Assembly (NCBI GenBank): GCA_002687825.1
Contig: NZBI01000012.1
Coordinates: 1 to 37,622 of the forward strand
Direction: 5' to 3'
DNA: 37,622 bases
Source: Nanobdellota archaeon
GTDB lineage: Archaea; Nanobdellota; Nanobdellia; SCGC-AAA011-G17; ARS1403
Part shown: one piece after another, positions 4,521-27,136 of the stretch
How the letters are laid out: every line of letters starts with the position of its first letter
Numbering within the stretch: position 1 is the first letter of the stretch
Translations under genes and position numbers: made by a program
The notes under the pieces: model-generated
The model's input: only the letters and a program-made list of their open reading frames with translations
What the model was told of the DNA's origin: nothing
Databases searched by the model: none

Positions 4521-4532
4521 ATATTTATAAAT
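4521..4532 (+). promoter_or_regulatory. TATA box of tRNA-Gly
   Basis: ATATTTATAAAT ends 26 nt before the first base of the tRNA, the usual archaeal TATA-to-start spacing. Confidence 0.6.
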
Positions 4533-4579
4533 TGAATTTTCTTTTAATTTCTTAAGTGCGTCAGTAGTATAGTGGTTAG

Positions 4580-4599
4580 ACATACAAAATATGGACCAA
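4580..4599 (+). other. tRNA-Gly intron 1, D stem (22/23)
   Basis: The 20-nt intron lies between bases 22 and 23. The central helix is GGTT in the exon with GACC in the intron (one U-G pair). The 5' bulge is AGA, the inner hairpin is CATA/TATG with loop CAAAA, and the 3' bulge is AAT. A cut one base earlier would also give a workable D stem, but this register alone gives 3-nt bulges. Confidence 0.8.
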
Positions 4600-4614
4600 T
4601 ATGTCGGCCTTCCA

Positions 4615-4629
4615 TTCTTCGGAGAAGGG
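4615..4629 (+). other. tRNA-Gly intron 2, canonical 37/38
   Basis: The 15-nt intron follows anticodon-loop base A37. The outer helix is GGC/GCC, the central helix CTTC/GAAG, the 5' bulge CAT and the 3' bulge GGA. The inner hairpin TC-TTCG-GA carries a UUCG tetraloop. This is a textbook BHB. Confidence 0.92.
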
Positions 4630-4644
4630 AGCCGAGGACCTGGG

Positions 4645-4671
4645 AAGTTAAGTTTTAACTTAATTCAGGAT
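4645..4671 (+). other. tRNA-Gly intron 3, T arm (53/54)
   Basis: The 27-nt intron lies between the 5' T stem and the T loop. The central helix is CCTG/CAGG and the inner helix AGTTAAG/CTTAATT is 7 bp with one G-U pair. The 5' bulge is GGA and the 3' bulge is ATT. Removal restores CTGGG-TTCAAAT-CCCAG exactly. Confidence 0.9.
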
Positions 4672-4672
4672 T

Positions 4673-5446
4673 TCAAATCCCAGCTGGCGCATTTAATTTT
4701 ACTAAATTTCTTGGTTTTATTATTTTGAAAAAATTATCCCTCTCAGCCTTTCGCAAAGAGATATGGTACATTCCGACTCTATTTCCTCTCTTGTCATCAT
4801 AAAATGAAAATCTAAACTCCTTAAAGCACAAATCTTCCAAAAATTCTCTAGTTTGTTCCATTATTTTTTTAGAAGCAGAGGAAAAAACCATTTTTTTGTT
4901 GGAGATATGTCCATCACTATCTATAAACCCTCTCAAAAAACCAATCTTGAAATTTCTAGGGTATTTATTTTTTCTTAGAAACACAGTTCTGGATTTTTTA
5001 TTAATCCCTATAGAATTTCTGGAAATCCCCCATCCAACATACCTTAGAATAAATTCAAATAATTGTTTAGAAGTATATCTAACAATTAGAACATTCTTAG
5101 TTCTATACAACATCGGTTTTTTATTGAATTTTTTAGCAAATAGTTTAACAATTTCATCTACAAATCTTTTTTCACTATAATTAAAGTAAAAGCGAGTAGT
5201 ATATGAATAAGTTTTAGCATCAAGAAAAGTATAGCCATCTCCAACAAACAAACCCATTAATTCACCAATGAACGATTCCTCACAACCTATTTCCAAATCT
5301 TTATATTTTTTACCGAATTCTCTCTTATAATAATAGTATAATGTAGATTTACCTAATTTAGTAAGTTTGCTAATGTAATTAAGGCTCTTTCCATCTTTCA
5401 TTAAATTTAGAATAAATTTCTTCTCATTTTCACTTAACCTTCCCAT
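4673..5446 (-). CDS. LAGLIDADG homing endonuclease, free-standing
   Basis: The 257-residue protein has both LAGLIDADG helices in one chain: ELMGLFVGDG at about 62-71 and FLRGFIDSDG at about 170-179. The acidic residues (Asp in VGDG and in DSDG) would coordinate the catalytic metals for double-strand DNA cleavage. An N-terminal helix-turn-helix-like segment (about 5-45) could help DNA recognition. The last codons and stop lie antisense to the T arm and acceptor of tRNA-Gly, a 19-nt overlap. A TATA element lies about 25 nt upstream of the ATG. The likely target is an intron-less or intron-poor copy of the neighbouring tRNA gene, which is inference. A transcriptional regulator derived from an endonuclease is the alternative. 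Confidence 0.85.
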   Translation of the reverse strand: MGRLSENEKKFILNLMKDGKSLNYISKLTKLGKSTLYYYYKREFGKKYKDLEIGCEESFIGELMGLFVGDGYTFLDAKTYSYTTRFYFNYSEKRFVDEIVKLFAKKFNKKPMLYRTKNVLIVRYTSKQLFEFILRYVGWGISRNSIGINKKSRTVFLRKNKYPRNFKIGFLRGFIDSDGHISNKKMVFSSASKKIMEQTREFLEDLCFKEFRFSFYDDKRGNRVGMYHISLRKAERDNFFKIIKPRNLVKLNAPAGI

Positions 5447-10417: not shown

Positions 10418-10490
10418 TTTATTAAATTAATAGAATAAATACTTATAAAGTTATCGCCCAGGAAGGGATTTGAACCCTCGACCTATAGCT

Positions 10491-10502
10491 TTCTTCCTTA
10501 GA
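10491..10502 (-). other. tRNA-Arg intron 2, 37/38
   Basis: The 12-nt intron TCTAAGGAAGAA lies after A37. The outer helix AGC/GCT and both 3-nt bulges are possible, but the central helix CTCC/GAAG has one C-A mismatch and the inner part is too small for a stable hairpin. It is therefore a relaxed BHB. Confidence 0.7.
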
Positions 10503-10521
10503 TAGGAGGCTATCGCTCTAT

Positions 10522-10563
10522 TTGCTCAGAACATTTTCGTGAACGTTTTTCAAAAAGGTTCTT
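10522..10563 (-). other. tRNA-Arg intron 1, D loop
   Basis: The 42-nt intron follows the GG of the D loop. The central helix is GCTT (exon) with GAGC (intron; one U-G). The 5' bulge is GGA, the inner helix AGAAC/GTTCT is stacked directly on the central helix, and the 3' bulge is AAA. Excision gives the common archaeal D-loop form ending GGATA before GAGC. Confidence 0.8.
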
Positions 10564-10603
10564 CCAAGCTGAGCTACCCAGGCATAATTAACTTTAAGAA
10601 ATT

Positions 10604-25651: not shown

Positions 25652-27136
25652 ATGAAATTAAATTTAGATTTATTAGATTTTATCCCCCACAAAATTTTTT
25701 CCGGCAAAAAGAACATTCTTAGAAAATTACATAAAGATTATGATGAAAAATTTATCGGGTTATATTATACAACTAAGGGATATAATAATTCTATAAGAGA
25801 GCATAACATAGCAATACCTAGATTTATCTCAAAATCAGAAAGAACATTTGAAGTTTTAGGATTATTGCAAGCAGAGATGGGTAAAACCCAAAATGGTACC
25901 TTATCTTTTGCAAACAACCAACCAAAAATAGTAAACAATGTTTTAAATTGGTTCAAGAAAGAACTAGATTTGAAAGAAGACACTTGGAGGTGGAGTATTA
26001 AACTAAATCTAAATGAACCAATAGATAAAAATTATAAAAAGGAAATCGAAAGCAAAGTAATAAAATATTGGGTTGAAAAAACAAAAATCTCTTTTAATCA
26101 AGCTTATCCAAAAAGAGTTACTTATATAAAAAATACAAATAATAAAAAACTAAAATTCTTTGATAAAGGATCAGTGGTTTTGGAGTATAGAAATAATTTA
26201 TTTAGTCAAATAATAAAAACCTTTGTGAGAAAAATAACTTATGAAGAAATACTGAAATCAGAGCTCAACATCATAAAAAGTTACATGAAAGGAATTTTTG
26301 CGGGAGAGAGCTGTATAGAAGACAGAAAAAAAAGCGGTCACTATAGAATACACTTAACAGCAAACAAATTAGAAGAGAGAAAATTATACCAAAAATGTTT
26401 GGAGAAATTAAACATAAAGGCACGAGAATATGATAACTACAAAGATGTGATTATTTCAGAGAAGGAGAATCACTTAAAATTATTAAAACTACGATTGATG
26501 ACGCTAAACCCAAAAAAATATAGCAAGTTTCTCAACATGATAAGTAGATACAAAGAGTTTCCAGAGTTAAAGGAATATAGAAAACAATTTAAAAATGAAA
26601 TTTGGAACAAAATCCCCAAAGAAAAGGTCAACAAAATCATGGAATTATACAAATTAGGCACAACAAGGACCACAGAGATAGCAAAGATATTAGAAATAAG
26701 TAAAATAAAAGTTAATAGAGTTTTAAAAGAAAACAACTTAGGAAAGAGAAGAGTTAAGGACTATCCAGAGTCTCTAAAAAAGAAAATAGTAAAATATGCT
26801 AAGAAAAATCCAAAAATATCACAAAGAGAAATTACAGAAAAATTTAATATTAGCGAGCAAGCAGTAAGAAGAGCACTTCAAAAGTATGGTTTCAAAAAAA
26901 CAGCAAAAGATAGAATAAAAACATCAATAGAAAAAATTAATAAAATTCTTAAATTATATAGGGAAAATCCCAAAATAAAATTTAAAGAAGTCATAGAGAA
27001 AGTTAAAATTAGTGATACAGCTTTAGTGAATATAAGAAGAATATATGGAATCCATAGACTGGGACATTATTACGTTGTAGGAAATAACCCTAAAGGTAAA
27101 AACCAATACAGTAAACCTTTTAAACAGGAAAAATAG
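25652..27136 (+). CDS. LAGLIDADG-type protein with C-terminal HTH repeats
   Basis: This 494-residue protein has two LAGLIDADG-like helices: VLGLLQAEMG (about 68-77) and MKGIFAGESC (about 212-221). Both end in Glu rather than Asp at the metal site, which many active members also use. Residues about 325-480 hold three helix-turn-helix-like units. The first has TTEIAKILEISKIKVNRVLK, the second SQREITEKFNISEQAVRRAL, and the third FKEVIEKVKISDTALVNIR. It has its own TATA box and lies between S9 and rpoN, splitting that cluster. A mobile DNA endonuclease is likely; a regulator descended from one (as WhiA is) is the alternative. Confidence 0.78.
   Translation: MKLNLDLLDFIPHKIFSGKKNILRKLHKDYDEKFIGLYYTTKGYNNSIREHNIAIPRFISKSERTFEVLGLLQAEMGKTQNGTLSFANNQPKIVNNVLNWFKKELDLKEDTWRWSIKLNLNEPIDKNYKKEIESKVIKYWVEKTKISFNQAYPKRVTYIKNTNNKKLKFFDKGSVVLEYRNNLFSQIIKTFVRKITYEEILKSELNIIKSYMKGIFAGESCIEDRKKSGHYRIHLTANKLEERKLYQKCLEKLNIKAREYDNYKDVIISEKENHLKLLKLRLMTLNPKKYSKFLNMISRYKEFPELKEYRKQFKNEIWNKIPKEKVNKIMELYKLGTTRTTEIAKILEISKIKVNRVLKENNLGKRRVKDYPESLKKKIVKYAKKNPKISQREITEKFNISEQAVRRALQKYGFKKTAKDRIKTSIEKINKILKLYRENPKIKFKEVIEKVKISDTALVNIRRIYGIHRLGHYYVVGNNPKGKNQYSKPFKQEK

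Follow-up and report, generated by a model that had tools for sequence, protein, structure and literature searches.

The gene at positions 4558-4691 on the forward strand of the window (the whole stretch of 37,622 nucleotides that was analysed) is a tRNA-Gly(UCC) gene containing three BHB introns, from an uncultured Woesearchaeota-like (DPANN) archaeon. With high probability it is the working tRNA-Gly(UCC) gene of this genome, its three introns being predicted to be removed by EndA and its exons joined by RtcB. Multi-intron tRNAs are a known class in archaea, and the gene belongs to it; what is new here is the lineage, a relative with four introns, the single EndA and a set of endonuclease frames anchored at tRNA genes. 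The features of the region are the following:

4524-4531, forward strand: TATA-box-like TTTATAAA, centred about 30 nt upstream of the tRNA and also found upstream of the G002 and G008 orthologues
4558-4579, forward strand: exon 1, tRNA positions 1-22
4580-4599, forward strand: intron 1, 20 nt, position 22/23; central helix GGTT/GACC, hairpin CATA/TATG, outer helix 2 bp
4600-4614, forward strand: exon 2, positions 23-37, with the anticodon TCC
4615-4629, forward strand: intron 2, 15 nt, canonical position 37/38; central helix CTTC/GAAG, UUCG-capped hairpin, full outer helix (the anticodon stem)
4630-4644, forward strand: exon 3, positions 38-53
4645-4671, forward strand: intron 3, 27 nt, position 53/54; central helix CCTG/CAGG, hairpin 7-8 bp, outer helix 2 bp
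4672-4691, forward strand: exon 4, positions 54-73
4673-5446, reverse strand: LAGLIDADG_3 homing-endonuclease-like ORF, 257 aa, with an N-terminal helix-turn-helix-like stretch

With exons in capitals and exons and introns alternating, the gene reads GCGTCAGTAGTATAGTGGTTAG acatacaaaatatggaccaa TATGTCGGCCTTCCA ttcttcggagaaggg AGCCGAGGACCTGGG aagttaagttttaacttaattcaggat TTCAAATCCCAGCTGGCGCA. Joining the exons gave a 72-nt tRNA-Gly with a standard cloverleaf, the anticodon UCC and zero mismatches in the acceptor, anticodon and T stems (G-U counted as a pair). All three junctions have a 4-bp central helix (4 of 4 pairs) and 3-nt bulges with the cut after the second bulge base, so that the rule of 3-nt bulge, 4-bp helix and 3-nt bulge proposed in the earlier note holds at each intron. 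The intron hairpins are of 4 bp in intron 1, 2 bp with a UUCG loop in intron 2 and 7-8 bp in intron 3. Compared with the strict hBHBh' form, the outer helix has 5 bp in intron 2 and 2 bp in each of introns 1 and 3, which places introns 1 and 3 between the strict and relaxed forms, nearer to the relaxed HBh'. When folded freely at 37 °C the T stem stays closed over intron 3 and competes with its BHB helix.

The gene model was compared with chance using a parser that allowed up to three BHB introns at any place. Its top result on the window was the three-intron model at 4558-4691 with a score of 30.3, exactly the model of the earlier note, whose coordinates, junctions and anticodon UCC were right to the base. 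Across 400 control windows, taken from this contig at a distance from known tRNAs, the highest score was 21.7. The second-best parse, which placed intron 1 at 21/22 and scored 29.5 against 30.3, loses one central-helix pair and was rejected. When the introns were shuffled with the junctions fixed, a full central helix together with a hairpin at least as good as that observed had P values of 4e-5, 8e-3 and 2e-5 for introns 1, 2 and 3, respectively. The tRNA-Gly(GCC) gene of the same genome (G000:C3:20571-20657) has a single canonical 15-nt intron and contains identical D-arm and T-arm sequences that are free of introns, therefore the exon borders are fixed independently of the BHB rule. The gene at 4558-4691 was missed by the Rfam tRNA model at its gathering score and by ARAGORN run without introns. 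Because standard tRNA models miss such genes, DPANN genomes may look poorer in tRNAs than they really are.

The genome, of 775 kb and 87% completeness, encodes both EndA and RtcB, with one copy of RtcB (E = 6e-164) and one EndA of 186 aa that scores over the cut-off and has both EndA domains. The EndA is closest to those of Woesearchaeota/Nanoarchaeota MAGs (71-75% identity), in agreement with the DPANN-like affiliation suggested earlier from the window. The earlier note had also taken the introns outside 37/38 to imply a heteromeric or epsilon-2 endonuclease and had proposed a search for endA paralogues. No paralogue was found: searches with PF01974 at E<=1 and with PF02778 at E<=10 each gave a single match and no beta subunit, and a 20-member EndA profile at E <= 10 gave no second copy in the 87%-complete genome. 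Nor was a three-unit fusion of the epsilon2 type (~390 aa) found, and with one EndA of 186 aa the proposed enzyme type was not borne out. An enzyme of broad specificity is not required simply because an intron lies outside 37/38, as narrow EndAs cut canonical BHBs; the question for the enzyme is the weak outer helix of the introns and not their position. Relaxed BHB introns are removed efficiently only by (alpha-beta)2 and epsilon2 EndAs (PMC6379350), neither of which was found here.

Residues 38-186 of the EndA align without gaps to 1A79, the narrow-specificity alpha4 enzyme of Methanocaldococcus, and there is consequently no sign of the Crenarchaea-specific loop that, with a conserved Lys, marks the broad-specificity crenarchaeal EndAs; no insertion was found relative to 1A79 or at that place in 20 relatives. 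On balance, the single EndA appears to be an alpha4-type homotetramer that tolerates the relaxed BHB form. A less probable assembly is a heterotetramer in which EndA is paired with a beta subunit too diverged for the Pfam models or the EndA profile. Of the solved structures, the closest to the EndA is NEQ205, which serves as the catalytic subunit in the heterotetramer of Nanoarchaeum equitans, and enzymes of that type handle introns such as those of this gene. The beta subunit of Pyrobaculum is just 96 aa long (PMC6379350), and a beta subunit of small size could escape the searches that returned one match each. However, NEQ261, the Nanoarchaeum beta subunit, was matched by a plain search with the EndA of this genome at 4e-13, and a similar subunit should therefore have shown. 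An EndA over the cut-off is present in 96 of 103 genomes from the order, and a second one over the cut-off occurs in G067 only, a genome with 6% contamination, which also speaks against a partner. An alpha4-like enzyme handling introns 1 and 3 is more likely than a beta subunit missed by the searches.

When the gene was compared with known systems, the multi-intron tRNAs of the Thermoproteales (Pyrobaculum and others) were similar in having BHB introns, several per tRNA, and the positions 22/23, 53/54 and 59/60 are among the known non-canonical archaeal intron positions (PMC4090602). The Thermoproteales are hyperthermophilic Thermoproteota, and the Crenarchaea-specific loop is part of their (alpha-beta)2 EndA, while the present genome is DPANN and has one EndA with no loop insertion. 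Nanoarchaeum equitans, the source of NEQ205, is listed among the archaea with multi-intron tRNAs (PMC4033280); its EndA is a heterotetramer of catalytic and structural subunits, whereas no partner subunit was seen here. Non-canonical tRNA introns also occur in ARMAN-1/2, which are small archaea of the DPANN type, but their epsilon2 EndA is a three-unit fusion of ~390 aa (PMC6379350) compared to 186 aa here. The tRNA-Ile(UAU) of Cyanidioschyzon merolae also has three introns, one each in the D, anticodon and T arms (PMC9602550), although in this eukaryotic red alga with a Sen-type endonuclease the likeness is in layout only. So far, the EndAs associated with heavy interruption of tRNAs have been of the (alpha-beta)2 or epsilon2 type with a special loop. 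This rule on EndA type can be tested directly in an order of small DPANN archaea whose tRNAs contain up to four introns each and whose EndA is single and loop-free.

The introns of tRNA-Gly occur at the same sites across the order, in other families as well. The tRNA-Gly(UCC) of G008, from the same family, contains four BHB introns at 22/23, 37/38, 53/54 and 59/60 (G008:C30, L120 1510-1664), and the same model was obtained again at L233 with a score of 29.0. This exceeds the maximum of three introns per archaeal tRNA, the Thermoproteales type included, that is published in the open-access literature (PMC8450103, PMC4033280). In G014, from another family, the three introns of the window were recovered at L217 by manual reading, the automatic parse differing for the first two. 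The tRNA-Gly(UCC) genes of G001 and G005 have introns at 22/23 and 53/54, that of G029 at 37/38 and 53/54, and those of G046 and G047 at 53/54 only. The earlier view that such a gene would be unusual in DPANN stands in that no earlier description was found in the open-access literature, but within this order these introns are common.

The reverse-strand ORF at 4673-5446 matches PF14528 (E = 2e-11), and two acidic motifs, GLFVGDG and GFIDSDG, can be read in its sequence. It resembles the free-standing LAGLIDADG homing endonucleases in having two LAGLIDADG motifs with acidic residues in a stand-alone ORF. Its last six residues, NAPAGI, and the stop codon are antisense to exon 4 of the tRNA, giving an overlap of 19 nt. 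The gene order of tRNA-Gly(UCC), LAGLIDADG ORF and PIG-L is also present in G002 and G008, with the C-terminus of the G002 copy shortened so that it looks decayed. In G029, from another family, the ORF at 1021-1792 of L293 ends in KLNAPAGI like that of the window and adjoins tRNA-Gly(UCC). Within the genome itself there are 16 non-intein LAGLIDADG_3 ORFs, of which 10 have a C-terminus that lies inside a tRNA gene or at most 45 nt away from one, compared to 0.11 expected (P ~1e-18). Among 27 LAGLIDADG_3 ORFs of relatives, chosen regardless of tRNAs, eight end firmly at a tRNA and five more plausibly do so. On the N-terminal side a tRNA lies within 60 nt in only 2 of 43 ORFs, so the direction is consistent, with the frame running into the tRNA. 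The open-access literature yielded no description of archaeal tRNA genes in which such a frame ends, and a LAGLIDADG frame that ends inside the last exon of a tRNA is apparently an undescribed feature. The simplest reading would be a stand-alone family of homing endonucleases sitting at its target, the tRNA gene. An origin of the ORF in a phage or virus was considered and set aside, as searches of phage records and IMG/VR showed no relative of it within the sensitivity applied. Elsewhere in the window, a 494-aa LAGLIDADG protein with C-terminal helix-turn-helix domains is encoded at 25652-27136 on the forward strand with no adjoining tRNA. LAGLIDADG_3 domains are abundant in genomes of the order, many of them within very long frames that are probably inteins.

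That the introns themselves were spread or kept by such tRNA-linked endonucleases is unlikely. Under that proposal the endonuclease would cut the uninterrupted tRNA gene, repair would copy the intron-bearing allele and the introns would break the target site. The frame at 4673-5446 does end in the last exon of tRNA-Gly(UCC), bordering intron 3, a similar arrangement occurs at the tRNA-Gly(UCC) of G002, G008 and G029, and the tRNA-ending fraction of such frames (10/16) points the same way. How tRNA introns transpose in archaea is described as unknown (PMC4090602), which was counted in favour, and the tRNA-linked endonucleases give a concrete and testable lead on intron gain. However, an endonuclease neighbour showed no enrichment for introns in this genome, where 6 of 10 tRNAs linked to an endonuclease have introns compared to 8 of 17 others (P = 0.69). 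The tRNA-Gly(UCC) genes of G014, G001, G005, G006, G046 and G047 have introns, with no such ORF found in the stretches covered, up to ~2 kb on either side, and the intron-free Pro-GGG, Arg-UCG, Ala-GGC and Ile-GAU tRNAs also have one. More doubtful still is the wider picture in which the tRNA genes of this order are the home of a stand-alone LAGLIDADG family with frames ending at or inside them, the non-canonical BHB introns are the scars of it or shields against it, and a single-subunit EndA of broad specificity works with neither beta subunit nor loop.

The central helices of the introns are preserved between genomes by paired changes. At 53/54, 36 of 36 central-helix pairs in nine orthologues are Watson-Crick, with the exon strand varying between CCTG, TCCG and CCCG; at 22/23, 36 of 36 pairs in nine introns are Watson-Crick or G-U, with the third pair T-A in five and C-G in four. 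Shuffled partners gave fewer Watson-Crick pairs at both sites (P = 0.002 at 53/54 and P = 0.005 at 22/23), P values that serve as guides and not as exact probabilities, the rows being related (G046 close to G047, G000 close to G002). A BLAST search of the 87%-complete genome with the mature sequence, for the second, intron-free tRNA-Gly(UCC) that the earlier note had proposed looking for, matched the gene's own exons, tRNA-Gly(GCC) and, weakly, other tRNAs, and returned no second tRNA-Gly(UCC), although the part absent from the assembly could hold an intron-free copy. With its helices kept by paired changes and with no other tRNA-Gly(UCC) detected, the gene is very probably a working one. A decaying tRNA pseudogene with insertions that merely resemble introns, which three interruptions within one essential tRNA and the failure of standard models to detect it might suggest, is highly improbable given the mismatch-free spliced stems, the lack of another tRNA-Gly(UCC) among the matches, the paired changes and the occupation of the same intron sites in several families.

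As a working gene, tRNA-Gly(UCC) would be transcribed from an archaeal promoter and its precursor would fold into three BHB motifs. EndA would cut after the second base of each bulge and RtcB would ligate the four exons to give the 72-nt tRNA, to which CCA would then be added. Introns 1 and 3, located in the D and T arms, have short outer helices, so their BHB probably forms only while the precursor is unfolded or partly spliced. The splicing of this tRNA, together with its transcription, cleavage and ligation, the splicing order and the assembly of the enzyme, we infer from sequence.

At least 27 tRNA loci are present in the genome, counted from stretches around features, and about 14 of the 27 have introns, many off the canonical site (the parses of L014, L018, L021, L022 and L026 being provisional). 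Examples are tRNA-Ser(GGA) with introns at 8/9 and 29/30, tRNA-Gln(UUG) at 10/11, and tRNA-Arg(UCU) and tRNA-Leu(UAG), both at 30/31 and 37/38. A further interrupted tRNA, missed by standard tools, lies in the window at 10460-10590 on the reverse strand; manual reading gave a tRNA-Arg(CCU) whose D loop holds a 42-nt intron, with a second, short intron at 37/38. The locus L009 (G000:C20:9089-9188) has the anticodon UAU and a 26-nt intron at 37/38 and is apparently a tRNA-Ile(UAU), a tRNA that has otherwise been noted in Nanoarchaeum and Korarchaeum (PMC8450103). At L022 (G000:C17:27392-27523) the provisional parse gave a tRNA-Cys(GCA) interrupted by introns at 15/16, at 30/31 and probably also at 37/38.
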